In this document: positions 14,645 to 63,461 of the stretch, piece by piece | Position numbering within the stretch: the first letter of the stretch is position 1 | Layout of the letters: each line of letters begins with the position of its first letter | Notes under the pieces: model-generated | Seen by the model: the letters and a program-made list of their open reading frames with translations, nothing else | What the model was told of the DNA's origin: nothing | The model's database searches: none | Program-made: the position numbers and the translations under genes | Source of the DNA: an uncultured Cryomorphaceae bacterium | Lineage (GTDB): Bacteria > Bacteroidota > Bacteroidia > Flavobacteriales > Schleiferiaceae | Assembly: GCA_937120475.1 (NCBI GenBank) | Contig: CAKZJV010000007.1 | Span: 186,001 to 250,000 of the forward strand | Direction of reading: 5' to 3' | Length of the DNA stretch: 64,000 bases

Positions 14645-17503
14645 TTAATAATAACCCCTGCGAATACGTTCTTTAACCTTACCGAGGTCGGCATTGAGTA
14701 CAAACCGTATGTATTTAGGATAGGCGGCCTGGGTTAAAAAGTTTACATCCTGGTTGGCAAAAGGGAAATAAAATTCGAGAAAATCGGTAAAGATGGCAAG
14801 GCGCAGACCGTAATCCCAGTAAAGACCCTGGCCATCGGCAATACCTACATCGCCAAATACCCCGAAAACGCTCCAAATCGGGATGGAAAGGCCGGAGCTG
14901 AGCAGGTATTCATCGGCAAAAACATCGGTTTCACTTCTAAAACCACCATCGGTTACAAAAAACTGTTGGCTCCAAATGCCGCTTTCATCTGAACGGCCTA
15001 TAAAGGTGTAGTCAAAAAGATAATCCTGGGTTCCGCTGAGGCCCAGGCTGTAATAATTGCCGTTGATGCCCCTGCGGGAAAACTCATTATTCAAAAATAC
15101 TCCCCCAAACTGCCGCCAGATCAGCCACTTTTTATTCGGTAACATCCACCGCAAGTCGGCTTCGGCTGTAATGCGGCTAAACTGGTTGCCATATTGAAAG
15201 TCAACATTCAGGGTAATGGGTTTGAGCACGTTAATGTCCTCATAGGTATAGCTGGCATTTAATACGGTATAGCTGGCGTTACTGATCTCGTTGGGGGTAC
15301 CCTCAAACGATGCGGGCAGTTCCCGTTCTACCGTTACCCCCCTTAGCCTGAGTTTCTGCAGCACGGTACTTTCGGCATATTTTCTTCTAAAATAGAAGTT
15401 TACGGCCGGTGAAATACGCAGGTAAGCCAGGTCCTCATCATAGTGGTAATAACGACCAAAAAGACCAGCGGCTATACGGTGAAAGGGACCACCCTCGGGC
15501 ACAAAATTAAATAGGGTACTTGCGTAACCCGTAATCTGCCCGGTACCGGTGGAGTATTCAGGACCGATCACGTATTCAAAAGGCTTATCCACAAAAGTGT
15601 TTTCATTGTAGAGAGAAATACCCAGGAGCAGTTTGTCGTAGGCATTGTAATTGGCGGTAGGCATCCAATACAACTGGGTTTTTTCCGGATTTTCAAAACT
15701 GGTGAAGAACTGCAGACGCAGGGGTTCCGCCTTTTTGAAGAGCCCGTGGGTACGAATACGGTTGTTCTTTTGGTTAAACTCGGGTGTGGTTTGGTGTTGA
15801 TTGATAATGACCCGGTCATAATCCGCATGATACATCTGCACGCTTTGGGTACCCTCGTGCCCGTTGAACCATTCGGTAATTACCGCCTGGTCATCCTTTA
15901 TGCCGGTTAGGGAATAGGGCATAGTGGAGCTACCCCGGTTGGCAACCGTGGCGGTAGTAATAGTAGGGCAGTGGTCCACTTCGGTTAGGGCGTAATCAAT
16001 TTTATAAGGGTGATCCACTAAATCGGTAAAAAACCAATCCAGTTCGCGGAAAAAATAAAAGGACATGGCTTTTTGCAAATGCCGGGGTTTAACCCTTTGC
16101 CCGCGGTTCTCTAAATAGAACTTGCGTAAGGAGCGGTTAAAATCACGTTCGCCCATGTATTGTTTGAGGTGGCTCAGGGCTAAATAGCTTTTGCCCTGGG
16201 CACAGGCATCGTAGTTTAACCGACTCAGGGAGTCAGCCGGTGTGCCCATGGGTTGATCCAGGCCCTGACGCGCCAGAAAGAGAAAGAGTAACTGGTTTTG
16301 AAAATCGTAATCGAACTCATCCAACTCAAAAAAGCGGCCTACAAAGGAGTTGCTAAAAGGAAGCCATTTCTGGTCCGGATAAACCGTTTTAATGAATTCG
16401 TATTTATAAAAATAGGGTAAGCCCCGGGCCAGCCAAACATCCTTAAAACCATCCGGAGCCATTTGGTAACGAAACAATTGTTCAGCGCGGGCGTGCGCTA
16501 ACTCAGCGGCCAGCTTAAAGGTTTTGGCCGGCCGTTCAATGCTTAGCACGTGGTCACTTTGAAACTCACCTACCTTATCATCCAGAATAATTAGGCTATA
16601 GGATCGGGAGAATTCCGGGCCTATTTGGGAGACCAAAAAGTCGTTCACCTGCTGATCGAGCCCTTTAATAATAGATGGTACGTACGGGTCATTGTCGGTA
16701 ACGTAAACATCAACACTATCCCTTACCGGGAAAACCCGGAAATGCCGGGAAATATAAAATTGCAGGGAAGTGGTAGCGGGATGGTAAAAGTTCAGCGTTT
16801 TTAAAGCTTCATGGCCAGCAGCTATTTTCTGAAAGGGCCGAGCCCGCATTTGCTCCAAACGCTCAGTTTCGCTGGTAGTTTGCAATTGCCCATTGCTTAC
16901 CACCAGCAGTTCATCTGCCAGGGTTAGCGATACCCGGTATTCATCCAGGCTTTGGTAAAGGTCGTTTTGATAGGTTACCGGGTTTAATCGCCAGCCGGAG
17001 GAATCGACCATCGCCATCCTGGGAAGCCAGTTTATGATACGGTACACCTTACCATCATAACCGGTGCCGTTAAACCTGGCTTCCGGCAACTGTATGCTGA
17101 ATTCCATTTGGATGCGCACTTCCTGGTTGGTGGGCAGTGGCTCTGCCAAAGGGAGGCGTACAAATTCACAGTCGGTGCAGGACGAAATATTATTTCCAGC
17201 TACCTGAAGTGCAGACAAGCGGATGCTGCCTTTCTCTTTTTCATCGGCATAATACAGCTTTACATCCTGGAAGTTGATAAACTGTTCCTGCAGCAGTGAT
17301 CCACGCCATTCCAACGACCGGGGCGGAAGGTGCAGATATAGTTCAGTGAGCGTGTTGCCCGAATGGTTGTGAAAGGTGATTTCCTGCTGGCCCTTCAAAA
17401 TCCGGGTGCTGTCATTGAGGTTGAGGTTTACCCGGTAGGAGTGAGGTTGTGCGTTAATCCAGAAGGAGCAAGACCATAGAAACAAGAAAAAGAAATAACG
17501 CAA
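14645..17503 (-). CDS. M1-peptidase-like protein fused to outer-membrane barrel, active site lost
   Basis: Large exported protein. The start is taken as TTG at 17503 (signal peptide MRYFFFLFLWSCSFWINAQ); a GTG at 17539 is possible, but a -7 element lies between them. The N-terminal ~500 residues follow the M1/gluzincin layout: beta-saddle (YRVNLNLNDS, ELYLHLPPRSLEWRG), a degenerate exopeptidase segment VGEFQSDHVLSIE, then AELAH at 333-337 where M1 enzymes have HExxH, and WLARG at 358-361 region where they have W-x-x-E-G. The first zinc His is Ala and the third ligand Glu is Arg. No other HExxH exists. From about residue 600 the sequence is strand-rich with aromatic girdles (GLFGRYYHYDEDLAY, FLEFYFPFANQD), like an outer-membrane barrel. 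Probably a binding or scaffolding pseudoenzyme. Confidence 0.85.
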   Translation of the reverse strand: MRYFFFLFLWSCSFWINAQPHSYRVNLNLNDSTRILKGQQEITFHNHSGNTLTELYLHLPPRSLEWRGSLLQEQFINFQDVKLYYADEKEKGSIRLSALQVAGNNISSCTDCEFVRLPLAEPLPTNQEVRIQMEFSIQLPEARFNGTGYDGKVYRIINWLPRMAMVDSSGWRLNPVTYQNDLYQSLDEYRVSLTLADELLVVSNGQLQTTSETERLEQMRARPFQKIAAGHEALKTLNFYHPATTSLQFYISRHFRVFPVRDSVDVYVTDNDPYVPSIIKGLDQQVNDFLVSQIGPEFSRSYSLIILDDKVGEFQSDHVLSIERPAKTFKLAAELAHARAEQLFRYQMAPDGFKDVWLARGLPYFYKYEFIKTVYPDQKWLPFSNSFVGRFFELDEFDYDFQNQLLFLFLARQGLDQPMGTPADSLSRLNYDACAQGKSYLALSHLKQYMGERDFNRSLRKFYLENRGQRVKPRHLQKAMSFYFFRELDWFFTDLVDHPYKIDYALTEVDHCPTITTATVANRGSSTMPYSLTGIKDDQAVITEWFNGHEGTQSVQMYHADYDRVIINQHQTTPEFNQKNNRIRTHGLFKKAEPLRLQFFTSFENPEKTQLYWMPTANYNAYDKLLLGISLYNENTFVDKPFEYVIGPEYSTGTGQITGYASTLFNFVPEGGPFHRIAAGLFGRYYHYDEDLAYLRISPAVNFYFRRKYAESTVLQKLRLRGVTVERELPASFEGTPNEISNASYTVLNASYTYEDINVLKPITLNVDFQYGNQFSRITAEADLRWMLPNKKWLIWRQFGGVFLNNEFSRRGINGNYYSLGLSGTQDYLFDYTFIGRSDESGIWSQQFFVTDGGFRSETDVFADEYLLSSGLSIPIWSVFGVFGDVGIADGQGLYWDYGLRLAIFTDFLEFYFPFANQDVNFLTQAAYPKYIRFVLNADLGKVKERIRRGYY

Positions 17504-17519: not shown

Positions 17520-17527
17520 CAAATATA
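17520..17527 (-). promoter_or_regulatory. -7 element for the M1-like gene
   Basis: TATATTTG on the minus strand matches TAnnTTTG. It overlaps the T run of the upstream terminator and lies 16 bases before the TTG start chosen at 17503, but inside the longer GTG reading. This is the main reason for preferring the shorter start. Confidence 0.5.
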
Positions 17528-17557
17528 AAAACAGCCCACCGCGTAGCGGCAGGCTGT
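17526..17557 (-). terminator. Rho-independent terminator of the PspC operon
   Basis: On the minus strand: ACAGCC, 2x2 internal loop, CCGC, 3-base loop, GCGG, internal loop, GGCTGT, then five T. It lies 26 bases after the stop codon of the PspC gene. Confidence 0.8.
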
Positions 17558-17583: not shown

Positions 17584-19311
17584 TTAGATGGTGATGAACA
17601 AGCTGGGATTGGTCAGGCTCAACGAGCTGGGATTGCTTACCGGGGTAGCCGACAGTTGAAGACTCATTTCTTCCACCGTATCGGTTTGTTCCGCTTCTAC
17701 TTCCTCCTCTTCTTCAAAGCTTCTTGCTTCCAGGCAATCGGCACACTCCAGGCCGCGTTCGGTCATAATCCATTCGTGGTCTATCATGTCGAAATCCCAG
17801 TAGTTCTCTACGTTTTGGATGTCGTAAATAATATCCGCCATATCCTGGCCGAGGTACACCGATTTACCAATAGGCAGGTAAAGGATTACATCCACCTCCT
17901 GGTCGCGAAAGGGAACACCCTTGGGCAGCAGGTAGTAGGGTGAGAAAAGCATTAATCCATCGGCAACTTCTGCGGACTTATAACGCACGCTCTCTGCATT
18001 GTTACGGGCAATTCTCCGGTTGCTTCCCCAGGCTTCCACCGTGGTTTTTAAACGCATTATGGTGTCGGGTGAGGCCTGTATGTCAAACTTAACCGAAGTA
18101 AAGGCATTGCCTTCTTCCACCTGCACCCAACTGGTAGAAAAGTCATAGTCCTCAAATACCTGGTAGATATCGTCTTTATTGAGGTGTAATTCTACCCGGT
18201 CGGTAGTTACACTCAGCTCGCGCTCGGTGGTGTAAAAAGAGCGGTCGTCAAATTCGGTAGCGATTCGAACTCCGGAAACCAGCAGCATTACAAAACCTAC
18301 AACAGCAGCCAGGATGAGCCCATTACGAGCGGGTGACCCCAGTCGTTCCAGCTTAAAGATAATCCGCACCCCCAGGTACACAATCAAGGTAAGGGGAGCC
18401 AATACCAACAGTCCCAGCCCTATGAGTAAAAGGTGGTAATGTGAGTTATTGACGGTTACCAGCGAGAAGAACTCGAAAAGGTCGTAAATACCCTGGTCGC
18501 TTCCCATTAAATGAAAACTACCGGTAAACAAGGCCGCCACCAGGGCGAACAATACAATAAAGCCCACAAATATGAAGAAGAACCCGATCAGCTTTAATAT
18601 AAACCGGAAGATCAGCTTCAGGGCATCGATGATAAAATCACCTATCTCGCGCAGCGAATTTCCGGCATTGCGGGTGGTTTTACGATAGTCGTATTGCGAG
18701 GCTTTCTTACCGAAGTTCTTAACATTTTCGCCTACGCTGCCCATCTCTTCACGGATGGAGCGTTCTATATTGGAAATGTTCACGGATTCCCCACGCATCT
18801 GCAGCTTTTCAGCGGTGGTAGATGCCTTGGGCACCACCAACCAAAGGATGAAGTAGAACAGGATTCCGAACCCGGCAAAAATGAGAGCCACGAAAAGGAT
18901 ACGCATCCACAAGGGATCGATGTTGAAATAGGCCGCTAATCCTGAAGCTACACCGCCCAGTATGCGGTCATCAGGATCACGGAAAATGCGTTTGCGGGTG
19001 GTGTAAACGGGCTCTTCATAAGCACGGTGTGCACCGGTTTCGTCCTCGGCATCCAAATAGTCTTCGGGTTTTCCGAGTATCCCGATCACTTCCTCTACAT
19101 CAGCCGAAGAGATTACCTCTTTAGCCTTGGTTGTTTTTTCACGGAAGAGTTCGGCAATACGCACTTCTACATCCCTTACAATCTCATCACCACCTTCGGT
19201 ATTGGCAAACTGCCGTTTTAATACCGAAAGGTAATGCTCCAGGGTGCGGTAGGCATCCTCATCAATGTGAAAGATGAGTCCTCCCAAATTGATATTCAGC
19301 GTTTTATTCAT
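17584..19311 (-). CDS. PspC-domain multi-spanning membrane protein
   Basis: Inner-membrane protein of the envelope-stress PspC type. The start is taken as ATG at 19311 (MNKTLNINLGGLIFHIDEDA), since the longer frame overlaps padR. Residues 1-100 are a soluble helical domain (EIVRDVEVRIAELFREK, VEEVIGILGKPEDY). Residues about 107-165 are the PspC domain (DRILGGVASGLAAYFNIDP, then a long hydrophobic span). Three more hydrophobic segments follow, then a C-terminal beta-rich extracytoplasmic domain (about 360-500) and a Glu-rich patch (EEEEEVEAEQ). Length 575. The start codon overlaps the padR stop by 8 bases, so expression is coupled to the repressor. PadR-PspC pairs are widespread in Bacteroidota. 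Confidence 0.92.
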   Translation of the reverse strand: MNKTLNINLGGLIFHIDEDAYRTLEHYLSVLKRQFANTEGGDEIVRDVEVRIAELFREKTTKAKEVISSADVEEVIGILGKPEDYLDAEDETGAHRAYEEPVYTTRKRIFRDPDDRILGGVASGLAAYFNIDPLWMRILFVALIFAGFGILFYFILWLVVPKASTTAEKLQMRGESVNISNIERSIREEMGSVGENVKNFGKKASQYDYRKTTRNAGNSLREIGDFIIDALKLIFRFILKLIGFFFIFVGFIVLFALVAALFTGSFHLMGSDQGIYDLFEFFSLVTVNNSHYHLLLIGLGLLVLAPLTLIVYLGVRIIFKLERLGSPARNGLILAAVVGFVMLLVSGVRIATEFDDRSFYTTERELSVTTDRVELHLNKDDIYQVFEDYDFSTSWVQVEEGNAFTSVKFDIQASPDTIMRLKTTVEAWGSNRRIARNNAESVRYKSAEVADGLMLFSPYYLLPKGVPFRDQEVDVILYLPIGKSVYLGQDMADIIYDIQNVENYWDFDMIDHEWIMTERGLECADCLEARSFEEEEEVEAEQTDTVEEMSLQLSATPVSNPSSLSLTNPSLFITI

Positions 19312-19645
19312 GGCTATTTGGTTTTTGAGTGGTTTTTTCAACGGCCTGCACCAGGTCGTTCCAGGTGGTGTGTAATTCGTTTAAAACAGTTTCGCCTTTA
19401 TCCGTAAGCGAATAGTATTTGCGGGGTGGCCCCGATTTGGATTCTTCCCAGCGGTAGGCCAGTAAATCGGCATTTTTAAGACGTGTGAGCAGGGGGTAGA
19501 GCGTACCCTCTACGATGATCATCCTGGCTTTTTTCAGATGCTCGATAATATCGGAGGCATAGGCGTCCTGCCTTTGCAAAAGGGCGAGGATGCAGAGCTC
19601 CAGTACCCCTTTTCGCATCTGAGCTTTGGTGTTTTCTATATTCAT
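19304..19645 (-). CDS. PadR-family transcriptional regulator
   Basis: Winged-helix repressor of 113 residues. Typical segments: KAQMRKGVLELCILALLQRQ, DAYASDIIEHLKKA, the wing GTLYPLLTRLKNADLLAYRW and the tail GPPRKYYSLTDKGETVLNEL. It is the short PadR form with a brief dimerisation helix. It lies between the DUF4252 gene (26-base gap) and the PspC gene (8-base overlap). The 23-bp palindrome at 20198-20220 upstream of the operon is a candidate for its operator, giving autoregulation. Some PadR proteins respond to phenolics, but the inducer here is unknown. Confidence 0.95.
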   Translation of the reverse strand: MNIENTKAQMRKGVLELCILALLQRQDAYASDIIEHLKKARMIIVEGTLYPLLTRLKNADLLAYRWEESKSGPPRKYYSLTDKGETVLNELHTTWNDLVQAVEKTTQKPNSHE

Positions 19646-33024: not shown

Positions 33025-33118
33025 TTTAGGTTAAAGCTTTAGTTTTATCCAATAAAGATAAAAATGCTTTAGAGCAAATCGTATAAAACCTCGTTTGGAT
33101 TATTTAAAGACCACTTTC

Positions 33119-35329
33119 ATGAAAATAAAGCTGATTTCATTTTTTCTTCTACTCCTTCTTAGCCTTCAATCTTCCGGTAAGGAAGGTATGTGGATACCGT
33201 ACCTGCTAGGTCAATTGAACCAGTCAGAGATGGAGGCCATGGGCCTGGAAATTACTGCCGAAGATATTTACAGCGTTAACCAGTCCTCGCTGAAGGATGC
33301 TATCGTGCACTTTAATGAAGGGTGCACCGCAGAAATTATCAGCAGCCAGGGTTTGCTATTGACCAATCACCATTGTGGTTATTCCCAGATACAAAGGCAT
33401 AGTACCGTAGAGCAGGATTATCTGAAAGATGGTTTTTGGGCCAAGTCCAATGCTGAGGAGTTGACCAATCCCGGGCTCACGGCTGCTATTGTGAAGTATA
33501 TGGAAGATGTAACCAATTTGGTATTGGCGGAGGCAACCGATAAAATGAGCCCTTCGGAGCGGGAAAGATTGGTGCGTGATAATATCCGCAAACTCCTGGA
33601 TGAAAGGGGGGAATCATCGGAGTATGATTTGAGTATAGTGCCTTTTTATTATGGCGACCAGTACATACTCATTGCGAAGGAAACCTTTAAAGACGTACGT
33701 TTAGTGGGTGCTCCACCGTCATCCATTGGTAAATTCGGAGCGGATACCGACAACTGGATGTGGCCCCGCCATACCGGTGACTTTTCCGTTTTCCGCATCT
33801 ATGCCGGAGCAGATAACAAACCGGCTGAGGTGGCCGAAGCCAATGTTCCCTATAAACCCAATTATCATTTAAAGGTGAACATTAGCGGGGTAGCGGATAA
33901 TGATTTCAGCATGATATTTGGCTTTCCCGGCAGAACGCAGGAGTACCTCCCCTCCAATGAAATGGAAAATATTATCGAGGTTTACGATCCTGCCCGTATC
34001 GCCATTCGTGCGAAACTGCTGAAAATTCTGGACCGCAAAATGCGGCAGAGCGATGCCACCCGCATTCAATATGCCTCTAAATACGCAGGTATCAGCAATG
34101 CCTGGAAAAAGTGGATTGGTGAGATTAAAGGGATTAAGGAAACCAACGGTGTGGAAAGAAGAAGGCAATTGGAAGAGCAGTTTCTGGCCGCATTGAATTC
34201 GAAACCCGAATTAAGGCAGCAATACTCCGATGTTTTAGATGAACTGAAGAAGCTTTACGAAGACCGTAAACCGGTTATGCTGGAGCGGTATCACTACATT
34301 GAAATAGGCTACTACGGCATTGAGATTATGCGCCACATGCTGGGCTATAGAGGGTTGGTAGAGGCTTACCGCAATGAGGAAGAAGAGGAAATGAAGAACT
34401 TGGCTACCCGCCTGGCCAATGGTTTGGATAACTTTTACAAGGATTATGACATTGACTTGGACCGCCAGGCCATGCAAGAGCTTCTTCCGGTTTACCTGGA
34501 GGCCATGTCAGAAGAGGGCTTACCGGAGCAGTTGAAGGAATTGAAAAAGATGGAGGATGAGGATCGCAGGGAATATATCGATGAGTTGTACGAGGATTTG
34601 ATTGTACTGGAAGACCCGGTGGAGTTTCGGGAAATGCTGATGGAAAAACCAGGTAAAGCCGCGAAAAAATTAGGAAAGAGTGAGGCTTTTCAATTAAGTA
34701 GCGCCATGTATGGTCACTTTTTGGAAGTACTGAATCCCCGGGCCAGTGCTATGGAGGATAAGATCGATCATTACCAAAGGGAGTACATTTCCGCCATGCG
34801 GAAGGTGTTTCCGCTAAAACGCTTTTATCCCGATGCTAACAGTACTTTGCGCGTAGCATATGGTAAGGTAGAGCCCTACGAACCCCGCGATGCGGTTTTT
34901 TACGATACCCAGACTTACCTGGATGGAGTAATCGCTAAATACATTCCCGGTGATTATGAGTTTGACCTGCCCGAAAAACTGATCGATCTGTATGAAAATC
35001 AAGACTATGGTCCTTATGCGGAAGACGGCAAAATGCCGGTTTGCTATATCGCCTCCAACCACACCACGGGGGGTAATTCCGGCAGTCCGGCCTTGAACAG
35101 CAGGGGGGAACTGGTGGGCCTCAACTTTGACCGTGTTTGGGAAGGCACCATGAGTGATATTAATTACGACATCAGCCGTTGCCGAAACATCATGGTGGAT
35201 ATACGCTACGTACTTTTCATCATTGACAAGTTTGCCGATTCCAAATACCTGGTGGATGAGATGGATATTGTGTACAACCCGGTGGTGGAAAAAGACCGAG
35301 GAATGAAGGAGGCCAATACAAAGTTTTAA
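33119..35329 (+). CDS. S46 dipeptidyl-peptidase, DPP11-type specificity
   Basis: Periplasmic serine exopeptidase that removes dipeptides from peptide N-termini for amino-acid uptake. The start is ATG at 33119, giving signal peptide MKIKLISFFLLLLLSLQSSG. The chymotrypsin-fold triad is His85 in TNHHCGY, Asp221 in HTGDFSVFR and Ser654 in GGNSGSP, close to the positions known for P. gingivalis DPP11 (85, 227, 655). Arg672 in NFDRVWEG occupies the position of DPP11 Arg673, which selects Asp/Glu at P1, whereas DPP7 has Gly there. A helical cap domain fills the middle. Length 736. Not part of a clear operon. Confidence 0.94.
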   Translation: MKIKLISFFLLLLLSLQSSGKEGMWIPYLLGQLNQSEMEAMGLEITAEDIYSVNQSSLKDAIVHFNEGCTAEIISSQGLLLTNHHCGYSQIQRHSTVEQDYLKDGFWAKSNAEELTNPGLTAAIVKYMEDVTNLVLAEATDKMSPSERERLVRDNIRKLLDERGESSEYDLSIVPFYYGDQYILIAKETFKDVRLVGAPPSSIGKFGADTDNWMWPRHTGDFSVFRIYAGADNKPAEVAEANVPYKPNYHLKVNISGVADNDFSMIFGFPGRTQEYLPSNEMENIIEVYDPARIAIRAKLLKILDRKMRQSDATRIQYASKYAGISNAWKKWIGEIKGIKETNGVERRRQLEEQFLAALNSKPELRQQYSDVLDELKKLYEDRKPVMLERYHYIEIGYYGIEIMRHMLGYRGLVEAYRNEEEEEMKNLATRLANGLDNFYKDYDIDLDRQAMQELLPVYLEAMSEEGLPEQLKELKKMEDEDRREYIDELYEDLIVLEDPVEFREMLMEKPGKAAKKLGKSEAFQLSSAMYGHFLEVLNPRASAMEDKIDHYQREYISAMRKVFPLKRFYPDANSTLRVAYGKVEPYEPRDAVFYDTQTYLDGVIAKYIPGDYEFDLPEKLIDLYENQDYGPYAEDGKMPVCYIASNHTTGGNSGSPALNSRGELVGLNFDRVWEGTMSDINYDISRCRNIMVDIRYVLFIIDKFADSKYLVDEMDIVYNPVVEKDRGMKEANTKF

Positions 35330-38725: not shown

Positions 38726-40531
38726 CTAGTAACGAACTACTTTATAACTGGCAGATTGCCCGTTGGTTAGATCTATCTTCAGCACATACATCCCAACCGT
38801 TAGATAGTCTCCGGAAAGGGAAAGCCGGTCGGTTGCCTGGTTTAGATTTTTGGTTTCTAAGGGTTTACCGCTAAGGGTATATAAAGTGTAGGCGGTAATT
38901 ATGGGTTCTGCGGATTCTACCTGCAAATTTCCACCTTCGGCAAATTGGTCGGTAGCTAAAATGCGGAGGTTATCTGAAGCAGCCAAACCTTCACCAAAAC
39001 CCATGGATTGATCCAATATGGACCTTCTGATAAATGCATCTACGATAACCTGGTAGTTTACACCACCGTTCAAATCGGCATCGGCTTGCACAATGTGCAT
39101 AGCCATTTGTGACATGGTGGTGCTTTGACCCAAACTGAATATGGCCTCCATCACTATTTCATCCGTAGTATTACGGCCCAGTATTCCATAAATCTCCATC
39201 AGAGCCGATGCAAAAATGTCGGTATGAGCGTAAATATTGCCGTTAAAGCTTAAGGTTTTGTAATTCTTGATGCTTTCCACCATGCGGCCTGCCCAAAAGG
39301 GATTATGGCCGTCCCAGCTAAAAACCCTTTCCTTGTTGAAGTTACTGATGCTGCGGGAATAGGAGGCCGCAAAATAATCGCCCAGTGACTCTTCAATGGT
39401 ATTGCGTTCGGTGCTGCCATTATTATTGCCGCTGGCCGCCAGAATATAGGCATGGGTGTACTCGTGAACAATTACATCGGCATCTTCGGCATCATCAACA
39501 CCTCCTTCACCCATTAATATCCTTGGGTTGGAAGCAGAGCTGAAAAGGGAATTATCAGTTCCGTTCAAAGCATGGGGATCGATAAGAATGGTATAACCGG
39601 GAATATTATTAAAGCCCAGGGCATCCATGTGCTGTTTATGATTGGAGATATGGTAAATACAGTTTACGTCCTCAAAACCGCTTTGTCCACGGGTGAAGGA
39701 AAACTGGCCGGAGGTACTGGTGGCCACCACAGTATTAGGGGCATCAACATCGGTAACCTGCACAAAATCATTCCTGAGTGTAAAAATGCCGGTAGCCGGG
39801 GTATAGGTGGCGGTAAACGATTTCCATTTCCGCTCTGCGTTGAGTACACCTACCTCGCTGTCATTATTATCTACGTAGGGAGTACCATAGTTTACCTGCG
39901 CGGTAGTTAAAGGGTCTGGTTCAAAAATGTAACCTTGTACCGTGGTATCATTGGGGCCGGAAGCGTGGTGCCGCTTAATCTTGTCGATAGTATAAAGAAT
40001 GCCTTCCTGGTTGTAGATCAAATCTTCATGCAGGCGGTTTTCCGACACCAATTCCACCTTACGAGCAGGTACCAGGCGGTTATTATTCACTATCCATACC
40101 ATTTCATCTTCTATTATGGATTCGGCCCCTTCCTGGGCGCGAAGCTGTTCGGCTTGCGCCAATGGAAAATCTTCCACGATAGGAGCTAGGGGTAGGGCCC
40201 CGGTAATGACGCGTCTCAAAGTCCCGTTATACGAAACCACCGCGTGTATATCCATTCCATATACCTTAATATTATTGAAGGTAAGGTGGTAATGATAGTG
40301 GTTAGCGGTTTTACTACTAATGGTTTTGGAGAGTTCGAGATCAAACCCCTTGGCCAGCTCCAGTTCGGCTTTAAGCAACTGTAGTGGCTCCTCCTCGTAT
40401 AAAGGCTTTTCGATTTCGAGGGTCTGTTCCGGCACCGCTGGGAAATCATTTTGATGGGTAGGAACGGACGTTTTTTGAGCAATCGCGTGGATTGTGAATA
40501 AGATCAAGGGTAAGATTACAAGTTTTTTCAT
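38726..40531 (-). CDS. secreted T9SS metallopeptidase (thermolysin/fungalysin-like)
   Basis: Exported zinc endopeptidase. Signal peptide MKKLVILPLILFTIHAIAQ; an FTP-like propeptide (about 40-190, YHYHLTFNNIKVYGMDIHAV); a peptidase domain with HEYTH at 356-360 and downstream Glu381 in IEESLGDYFA, the M4/M36 ligand pattern; and a C-terminal T9SS type A tail (TAYTLYTLSGKPLETKNL, VGMYVLKI). Length 601. The Cys-free catalytic domain and DPHALNGTDNSLF segment fit secreted Bacteroidota metallopeptidases. Exact family (M4 or M36) is uncertain. It follows yigZ by nine bases. Confidence 0.88.
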   Translation of the reverse strand: MKKLVILPLILFTIHAIAQKTSVPTHQNDFPAVPEQTLEIEKPLYEEEPLQLLKAELELAKGFDLELSKTISSKTANHYHYHLTFNNIKVYGMDIHAVVSYNGTLRRVITGALPLAPIVEDFPLAQAEQLRAQEGAESIIEDEMVWIVNNNRLVPARKVELVSENRLHEDLIYNQEGILYTIDKIKRHHASGPNDTTVQGYIFEPDPLTTAQVNYGTPYVDNNDSEVGVLNAERKWKSFTATYTPATGIFTLRNDFVQVTDVDAPNTVVATSTSGQFSFTRGQSGFEDVNCIYHISNHKQHMDALGFNNIPGYTILIDPHALNGTDNSLFSSASNPRILMGEGGVDDAEDADVIVHEYTHAYILAASGNNNGSTERNTIEESLGDYFAASYSRSISNFNKERVFSWDGHNPFWAGRMVESIKNYKTLSFNGNIYAHTDIFASALMEIYGILGRNTTDEIVMEAIFSLGQSTTMSQMAMHIVQADADLNGGVNYQVIVDAFIRRSILDQSMGFGEGLAASDNLRILATDQFAEGGNLQVESAEPIITAYTLYTLSGKPLETKNLNQATDRLSLSGDYLTVGMYVLKIDLTNGQSASYKVVRY

Positions 40532-61817: not shown

Positions 61818-63461
61818 CTATGATTTTTGGCCAGCCTTTCTGCGCTTTCGGAAATAGTTGAACCCGTAAATAATTGTCACCAGGAGAATAAAGGGCCAAA
61901 AGTAGCTTACCCGGGCACCTTTACCGCTCACGGTAGTAAATACCCGATCGGTACGAATTTTATTCTTAAAACCATCGGCAAACTTATCCCAGCTCATCCA
62001 GATGAACACGGGTTTGCCCACAATATGATCGGCCGGAACATAGCCCCAGTAGCGGGAATCAAGCGAATTATGGCGATTGTCACCCATCATCCAATAATAG
62101 CCCTGCTTAAAGGTGTAGGTTGAAGATTCGGCACCGTTGATGTAATACTTATCACCGCGTAGCTCTAAGGTGTTTCCTTCGTACACTTCAATAACCCTTC
62201 TGAATTTCAGGTAATTTTCACGGTTCAGCTCTACCTGATCCCCTTCTTTGGGCATGTAGATAGGACCGTAGTTGTCGCGGGTCCATTGAAATTCGACACT
62301 ATCGCCATGAGCCGGGTTGGGGAAAACACGCCCGGTAGCTAAAAGTTGATAGTTGTATAAATGGCGTACCAGGGCAGCCGGTGAATCGGCTGGAAAGTCT
62401 TTTACATCGCGGTGGCTATTCAAACGGATTACCTGAACGATATTGGGCAACTTCTTAAAGTTATCCACCTGGTGGGAGGGAATGGTGATGATGTAGGCAT
62501 AGGGGCGGAATTGCTCACGGGAATCGCCTGGCATAAAGCCATCTTTATTGATCAGGTAGTAGGCATCTGGATCAATATCGAAATCCTCCTTCAGCATACG
62601 TGGACTAAAACCATTGCCCTTAAATTCAACGTAATAGCTGAATTGGGGCAGGGAGCGGTCGGGCATTTCCAATGGCCCGCCATTTACAAAAACCTTCCCG
62701 TTTTTAATGGATAACGAATCACCGGGTATGGCCACACAACGCTTTACGTAATGCTCTCTTTTGTCCACCGGCTTTTCACTTTCCATGGGGTAGTTGAAAA
62801 CCACGGGGTCCAGCCGCTGTACATCACTTATTTTAGGTAAACGCACGTAGGGTAGTTGCACCCAGTCCAGGTAAGAGGGGGTTTGGGTGCCCGGAATGCG
62901 ATTGTGCACCAGGGGCAGGGAAAGGGGCGTTATGGGCAGGCGGCTGCCGTATTGTAACTTACTGACAAATAAAAAGTCACCCACCATCAACGACTTCTCC
63001 ATAGAAGGAGTGGGAATGGTAAAAGCCTCGAAGGTAAAAGTACGGATAATGGTAGCGGCCACTACGGCAAATATGAGGGAGGCAGCCAGTTCACTAACGT
63101 GTTTACGAATATTGATTTCATCGCGACCCACATACTCCAGCTTACCGGAATAATTGATGTAGCCCAGGTAAAAACCAGCGGTTAGTAAGGTGTAAATGGT
63201 GTGTTTTAGCTTACGATAGTTGAATACGTGAAGCAACTCGTACACGGCCACCACACCCATGATATTCCCTACAATGGGAATATAAAAGAGAATGACCCAC
63301 CAACCGGGCCTTTTAATCATTTTGGTAAGCAGGTAAGTATTGTAAATGGGAATAAATGCACCCCAGGCCGGGTGCCCGGCTTTTTGGTAAAATCTCCAGG
63401 AGATTAATCCCGCAAAAAATTCAACGGCCAGGCTAAAAATGATGGTTTCGAGTATGGTCAT
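61818..63461 (-). CDS. lepB: signal peptidase I
   Basis: Removes signal peptides from exported proteins at the inner membrane. Four hydrophobic segments precede the catalytic part (residues 1-145) instead of two in E. coli. Catalytic Ser153 is in TIPTPSMEKSL and Lys240 in HYVKRCVAIPGDSL. Box D/E is near MMGDNRHNSLDSRYWGYVP. Large inserts between boxes bring the length to 547, against 324 in E. coli; this is usual for Bacteroidota. A C-terminal membrane anchor (FWPFILLVTIIYGFNYF) precedes a basic tail. It starts two bases after dapB. Confidence 0.96.
   Translation of the reverse strand: MTILETIIFSLAVEFFAGLISWRFYQKAGHPAWGAFIPIYNTYLLTKMIKRPGWWVILFYIPIVGNIMGVVAVYELLHVFNYRKLKHTIYTLLTAGFYLGYINYSGKLEYVGRDEINIRKHVSELAASLIFAVVAATIIRTFTFEAFTIPTPSMEKSLMVGDFLFVSKLQYGSRLPITPLSLPLVHNRIPGTQTPSYLDWVQLPYVRLPKISDVQRLDPVVFNYPMESEKPVDKREHYVKRCVAIPGDSLSIKNGKVFVNGGPLEMPDRSLPQFSYYVEFKGNGFSPRMLKEDFDIDPDAYYLINKDGFMPGDSREQFRPYAYIITIPSHQVDNFKKLPNIVQVIRLNSHRDVKDFPADSPAALVRHLYNYQLLATGRVFPNPAHGDSVEFQWTRDNYGPIYMPKEGDQVELNRENYLKFRRVIEVYEGNTLELRGDKYYINGAESSTYTFKQGYYWMMGDNRHNSLDSRYWGYVPADHIVGKPVFIWMSWDKFADGFKNKIRTDRVFTTVSGKGARVSYFWPFILLVTIIYGFNYFRKRRKAGQKS

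Follow-up and report, generated by a model that had tools for sequence, protein, structure and literature searches.

Lineage-wide loss of the zinc site in an M1-barrel protein of Bacteroidia, a predicted outer-membrane pseudo-peptidase with conservation moved to its barrel

The stretch analysed here (hereafter the window) comprises 64,000 nucleotides from an uncultured Cryomorphaceae bacterium (assembly GCA_937120475.1, contig CAKZJV010000007.1, positions 186,001 to 250,000 of the forward strand), and one of its reverse-strand genes encodes a protein in which a degenerate M1-aminopeptidase region is followed by a C-terminal barrel-like domain (M1-barrel protein; Table 1). Judged from sequence comparison, the protein belongs to a Bacteroidia-wide family with an M1 fold and a C-terminal barrel-like domain, and in its own lineage it appears as a fixed pseudo-peptidase, predicted to lie in the outer membrane, in which catalysis has been lost, the full length has been kept and conservation has moved to the barrel. 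The likeliest role, to which we give a probability of about 0.45, would be to act in the periplasm as a gate, or as a substrate receptor, for an outer-membrane barrel.

The loss is read from two alignments with active barrel-bearing homologues, in which the window segment KLAAELAHARAEQLFRY...DVWLARG aligns without gaps, and in the same columns, with LDKVIAHEVGHNWFYG...PFMDEG of the active proteins (residue numbers here are those of the 964-residue frame used in the alignments, and 12 is subtracted for the 952-residue form). The column of the HExxH motif reads HARAE in the window protein, such that His349 is kept, the Glu is replaced by Ala350 and the second His by Glu353, and the Glu that serves as third zinc ligand is replaced by Arg372, as the first-pass annotation had noticed. 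His349 and Arg372 are 23 residues apart, matching the spacing of the HExxH-18x-E site, whereas AELAH lies 27 residues from the same Arg. The aligned columns and this spacing together place the zinc motif at HARAE and therefore not at AELAH; the first-pass annotation, which had read the motif as AELAH with its first His changed to Ala, was right that the site is dead and four residues off in register, and the first His is in fact kept. The column of the catalytic Tyr holds Gln448, the GGMEY motif (of the G-x-M-E type) is gone and, as had been claimed, there is no HExxH anywhere in the window protein. The M1 half is hence predicted to be catalytically dead.

Five positions (the two His, the Glu base, the zinc Glu and the Tyr) were read in 147 collected sequences, of which 76 hold all five residues (active rows), 69 do not (dead rows) and two are fragments without the site. 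L231 was counted as active by alignment despite not fitting the spacing pattern; dead and active M1 regions are about 20-25% identical, and individual residues may therefore be misaligned in the most distant rows. The window's order contributes 68 of the 69 dead rows, with 37 from the window's family, 14 from family f3, 10 from f6, three from f2 and one each from f4, f12, f13 and f15, the remaining one (L223, f43) being from another order. The active rows comprise 51 from other orders and, within the order, 14 from f11, two each from f14, f15 and f7, one from f5 and four from the window's family. Most sampled family members outside the order are intact M1 sequences, and since the class loci are mostly best-scoring ones, this part of the sample leans to intact proteins.

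Among the dead rows the Tyr is retained in none, the Glu base in three, the second His in two, the zinc Glu in six and the first His in 11, with none of the five residues kept in 50 rows, one in 16 and two in three. In the 18 rows nearest to the window the replacements are themselves fixed: the Glu base is Ala in 18 of 18, the zinc Glu is Arg in 17 and the second His is Glu or Gln in 18. The substitutions are thus conserved among orthologues, and the prospect raised in the first-pass annotation, of a single mutated outlier, fails against a lineage-wide loss, although HExxH-intact homologues are common in the class and one occurs at the syntenic locus. The first His is retained by the window protein and by nine of these 18 rows, which would favour a protein that is still an enzyme by way of an alternative metal site or of some different chemistry. 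Such an enzyme is very improbable, as the Tyr is missing from every dead row, none keeps more than two of the five residues, the window protein lacks HExxH, the lone HExxH of a dead row (L041) lies away from the aligned site, and conservation is lowest in the M1 part. In L041, from genome G061, this motif stands at residue 505 of the frame, and a second dead copy, L040, occurs in the same genome. An acid at the second His is combined with a base at the zinc Glu in 16 of the 69 rows, and a base at the first His with an acid at the zinc Glu in 17, related rows being counted repeatedly in both cases; in some lineages an opposite-charge pair of presumed geometry in the empty zinc site may steady the fold.

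The two halves of the protein have exchanged their conservation. When identity is compared by region, the barrel exceeds the M1 catalytic region in 24 of the 27 disjoint nearest pairs among dead proteins and in 0 of the 29 among active ones, and over all pairs, which are not independent, in 1462 of 1485 dead against 3 of 1711 active ones; the dead rows compared are those other than L223 and five further rows (four short ones and L034). At least 85% conservation is reached by 6 of 452 M1 columns in dead rows against 157 in active rows (1 of 231 and 5 of 221 in the two parts, against 84 and 73), and by 44 of 366 barrel columns in dead rows against 24 in active ones. Asp635, His699, Arg797, Ser850 and Arg961 of the barrel are near-invariant in dead rows and far less so in active rows. 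With nearly the same domain borders, mean conservation amounts to 0.39 in the M1 part, 0.52 in the linker and 0.61 in the barrel. Ratios of nonsynonymous to synonymous substitution rates (dN/dS), several of them rough, could be taken from three dead pairs (dS was saturated in two further ones) and are 0.02, 0.20 and 0.10 for the M1 catalytic region and 0.02, 0.05 and 0.05 for the barrel, while four active pairs give 0.01-0.07 for M1 and 0.06-0.12 for the barrel. The regional identities above bring out the same picture more robustly than these ratios. This reversal reads as a clear sign of changed function, and it suggests that the barrel rather than the M1 half carries most of that function.

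The chief rival explanation starts from the same figures. With the barrel as the conserved part and so few conserved M1 columns, the M1 half may be a structural relic, needed just for folding or insertion and binding nothing, while only the barrel matters. We consider this unlikely: the M1 region still spans at least 400 residues in 67 of the 69 dead rows (median 460 residues, against 499 in active rows), its dN/dS is well below 1 in the three pairs, within the near clade the residues that now occupy the site are conserved, and a relic of such size would be expected to shrink somewhere. A decaying pseudogene or a sequencing error is hardly credible. The catalytic motif is degenerate, a TGA and a TAG lie within the matches in genomes G017 and G242 respectively, and the frame of L046 is shortened; however, the window frame is open over 952 codons, at least 880 amino acids are encoded by 65 of the 69 dead frames, orthologues within the window's family are 32-75% identical, and the low dN/dS and the conserved barrel are those of a maintained gene. 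Three of the four short dead rows (L026, L033 and L027) stop only a few bases from the end of a contig, and L046 does not. The pseudo-peptidase state is accordingly best described as apparently lineage-wide, and not as gene decay.

The history of the loss was followed in quick, unrooted LG+G4 trees. In a tree of 88 rows, dead and active proteins form the two sides of one branch (Shimodaira-Hasegawa-like approximate likelihood ratio test support 100), and the catalytic state requires one change against a shuffled mean of 28.7. A tree of 109 rows, with the ten site columns removed, requires two changes against a shuffled mean of 36.7, the second being L223, and the branch leading to the rows that contain all active proteins has a support of 89; these rows are the 147 less eight (short or site-less ones and L034) and less 30 hand-chosen near-duplicates, and the placement among them of L260 (f13), a long branch, is unsure. 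The change is read as a loss because other M1 enzymes are active. On the sampled tree one loss would account for the dead clade, with one further loss in another order. L223 itself (genome G505) represents this separate loss and is the only dead protein found on looking outside the order. In four genomes of the window's family an active copy stands beside the dead one (L048-L051, in G008, G009, G020 and G011), and the three of these active copies included in the larger tree group there with active proteins of other orders, as if horizontally acquired, the dead copy having been retained alongside. L106 (genome G136, f15) is dead and groups with f3, though two other f15 genomes have active copies, and a transfer is possible.

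Copies at E<=1e-100 occur in 36 of 88 genomes of the window's family. In a search of 346 genomes of the order, 61 f3 genomes are listed with a match and 60 of them reach this threshold, as do 56 of 60 listed in f6, which amounts to nearly all listed genomes of these two large families (these genome counts, and the neighbour counts below, were made by eye from the listings). At the class level, open frames of about 1000 residues that match along their length are present in many genomes; in 20 weaker-scoring genomes the best match extends no further than position 596 of 980 and so stops short of the barrel, one of them (G388) having an additional weak match at 614-698. On comparison of 36 loci (the window and 35 others), a member of the E1-dehydrogenase cluster (PF00676 in the window) was found near the M1-barrel gene at 16, and at 12 it is the next listed downstream frame on the same strand. 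The 12 include the active f5 gene L182, which shares with the window six upstream clusters in the order c6, c15, c2, c10, c8, c2, the last of which adjoins the M1-barrel gene and is of PspC type in the window. From these shared neighbours, the active and the dead protein are taken to be positional orthologues. The identified neighbours are housekeeping genes, namely UvrA, the E1 dehydrogenase and an RNA methyltransferase.

Recognition of the M1 fold depends largely on profiles. Pfam reports for the window protein Peptidase_M1 (PF01433) alone, at E=0.0043 and below cut-off, and a single-sequence search of the PDB with the window protein gave no match; NCBIfam likewise gave none for the window protein or three dead homologues, and two active homologues match aminopeptidase N or related models there, far below cut-off. 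PF01433 is matched at E<=0.1 by 17 of 32 homologues from the window's family, the window included, and the profile built from these 32 sequences (A2) matches known M1 aminopeptidase structures with a best E=3.5e-10, to puromycin-sensitive aminopeptidase (PSA). The genome encodes five further M1 proteins, all with HExxH-18x-E, and the dead M1 profile finds them at 91-99.7% probability, against at most 0.3% for reversed M1 sequences and at most 0.8% when two unrelated proteins are included as controls. Compared by hhalign with a profile of four active M1-barrel proteins, the dead profile scores 100% (E=1.5e-72 over 893 columns), and the barrel profiles alone score 100% (E=5.4e-89). The first-pass observation that the N-terminal half follows the M1 layout is thus sustained by profile-profile matches in spite of the sub-threshold Pfam score. 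No relative of the window protein was found in viral contigs.

In the role that we favour, the M1-barrel protein would be exported and its barrel inserted in the outer membrane, where the barrel would be the working part, either a conduit or a site of assembly or insertion, and the M1-fold domain would hang in the periplasm, binding or gating what reaches the barrel without cutting it. By analogy with PlpD, an N-terminal domain placed before a C-terminal barrel is more likely to lie in the periplasm than at the surface. The receptor, chaperone or scaffold named in the first-pass annotation stay candidate roles. A fuller version, in which a former peptidase-barrel has been turned across the lineage into a non-cutting gate or receptor, with the barrel as conserved core carrying newly fixed residues and the M1 domain admitting or presenting substrate, is tentative and, taken as a whole, somewhat unlikely.

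Several observations weigh against the gate or receptor role. Given its very low conservation, the dead M1 domain could be little beyond a structural relic. Pfam finds only sub-threshold M1 matches in three of five dead homologues from other families and none in the other two even at E<=1, and because single-sequence matches are so weak or absent, the M1 fold of these homologues rests on alignment with relatives. The gene is dispensable in some lineages, since 52 of the 88 genomes of the window's family have no copy at E<=1e-100; 50 of these 52 fall in three small-genome genera. No pathway is suggested by the gene neighbourhood at the 36 loci compared, and the tree would also be compatible with an old duplication whose copies were then lost differentially. 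Lastly, among structure models built from five sequences (the window and four loci), the whole-protein model failed, with a mean predicted local distance difference test score (pLDDT) of 38.9, and was not used, and the barrel-only model, all-beta with about 16 long strands, is weak (mean pLDDT 51.7, predicted template-modelling score 0.44); a Foldseek search with it returned nothing at E<=0.001, the best hit being BamA at E 0.055.

The suggestion in the first-pass annotation of an outer-membrane barrel at the C-terminus is supported to the extent that the model is all-beta and barrel-like at low model confidence, and the membrane location stays a prediction. In a fold comparison of this weak model the 50 rows shown were all membrane barrels by title, BamA, TamA and FhaC being among them and tied with other barrels; the best Z was 10.6 (BamA, 6.4 A over 242 residues), tied with siderophore receptors, TamA, OmpG and others. 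The local fit was best to BamA and TamA (2.6-3.6 A over about 130-150 residues). The comparison supports a modelled membrane barrel and no particular barrel class. Against the genome's three Omp85 proteins, each given as a single target sequence, the barrel profile scored at most 0.2% by hhalign, with reversed controls at 0.1-3.2%, and against its two DUF5686 proteins at most 1.2%; the test is weak, since one reversed control (3.2%) outscored all of them. PF01103 (Omp85) was matched neither by the window at E<=1 nor by the 32 A2 members at E<=0.1, and PF18939 (DUF5686) was matched by one of the 32 members only, at E=0.078. As barrel relatives, Omp85 and DUF5686 thus gained no support from the sequence profiles, in a test that is weak given the higher-scoring reversed control.

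These comparisons bear on a further possibility, namely that the protein serves as an accessory subunit in a complex for outer-membrane assembly or secretion, such as the beta-barrel assembly machinery (BAM), the lipopolysaccharide transport (Lpt) complex or the type IX secretion system (T9SS), with the dead M1 domain as a docking platform. Its retention across families, the occurrence of two copies in G061 alone among the 36 copy-bearing genomes of the window's family, and the local closeness of the weak barrel model to BamA and TamA would agree with such a part. The Z values are, however, tied among many unrelated barrels, no profile link joins the barrel to the genome's Omp85 or DUF5686 proteins (with reversed controls reaching 3.2%), and term searches in the main texts of papers on the BAM complex of Flavobacterium johnsoniae and on the second Bacteroidota BAM complex (PMC12611786, PMC12578637) show no peptidase; we therefore consider an accessory subunit unlikely, and more so than a relic.

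The closest known proteins are the active Bacteroidia M1-barrel proteins, which have the same domain order and full-length homology with the window protein, barrel included, and one of which (L182) occupies the same locus. Unlike the window protein, they retain the complete set of five catalytic residues in all 76 rows, and in them, unlike in the dead lineage, the M1 half is the conserved part. PF01433 is their sole Pfam match above cut-off, and no family name was found for them. In open-licence PMC papers, a body that lies apart from most subscription papers and all preprints, no description of the M1-barrel protein or its dead form was found. With the M1 aminopeptidases (PF01433; ERAP1/2, PSA, aminopeptidase N) the likeness is the profile match across the M1 region, while the window protein differs from them in having one catalytic His left and a barrel-like domain fused. 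TAF2, an M1-like non-catalytic subunit of TFIID, likewise keeps the M1 fold as a scaffold after catalysis was lost, and is eukaryotic, soluble and not known to carry a barrel. PlpD (PMC11116518) carries a periplasmic patatin-like domain on an outer-membrane barrel and so resembles the window protein in layout, with an enzyme-fold domain at the N-terminus that a C-terminal barrel anchors; it differs, as do type Vd proteins, in that the window protein and the 32 A2 members have no patatin match in Pfam and no Omp85 relation was detected by sequence. The FP0506 elastase of Flavobacterium psychrophilum was also considered and is, by its description in PMC6414381, a different protein, a 296-residue lipoprotein with HExxH.

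The gene itself can be read from two starts, a GTG at 17539 giving 964 residues and a TTG at 17503 giving 952. The TTG is the likelier start as predicted from the sequence context, because a TATATTTG box sits 17 nucleotides upstream of it, which the GTG start would place inside the gene; the TAnnTTTG consensus is named in PMC6414381. The putative signal peptide has a likely A|Q cleavage, consistent with the Bacteroidetes Q-rule (PMC5837995), and the protein is apparently exported. Terminator-like hairpins were found on both sides of the gene in a consensus scan of the region that returned nine against 5.6 expected.

Table 1. Features of the M1-barrel gene and its flanks, in window positions.
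Feature	Position	Strand	Basis
Whole gene, 952 aa and stop, TTG start	14645..17503	(-)	open reading frame reading and homologues
TATATTTG, putative Bacteroidota-type box (TAnnTTTG)	17520..17527	(-)	sequence match; 17 nt before start codon
Terminator-like hairpin between PspC-type gene (17584-19341) and M1-barrel gene	17531..17557	(-)	consensus scan
Terminator-like hairpin immediately past stop codon	14614..14637	(-)	consensus scan
Putative signal peptide, likely cleavage A|Q	17450..17503	(-)	read from sequence by eye
Degenerate M1-aminopeptidase region, residues 30-500	16040..17452	(-)	profile comparisons
HARAE at HExxH position, residues 349-353	16481..16495	(-)	alignment with active homologues
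Arg372 replacing third zinc ligand Glu	16424..16426	(-)	alignment
Gln448 replacing catalytic Tyr	16196..16198	(-)	alignment
Linker domain, residues 515-598	15746..15997	(-)	conservation borders
C-terminal barrel-like domain, residues 599-964	14648..15745	(-)	most conserved part in dead lineage

Three other proteins of the window were noted along the way, namely a 547-residue protein in which a DUF5684 region is joined to a signal peptidase S26 domain (61818-63461, reverse strand), a 601-residue protein with a sub-threshold Peptidase_M36 match and a HEYTH motif (38726-40531, reverse strand), and a protein with a strong Peptidase_S46 match (33095-35329, forward strand).

What stands out for the family is a dead peptidase retained across many families of one order, at a locus common to an active relative. 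The active relatives elsewhere across the class provide a control for the dead lineage, and if f3 and f6 include laboratory species, as they probably do, ordinary genetics could decide the role.

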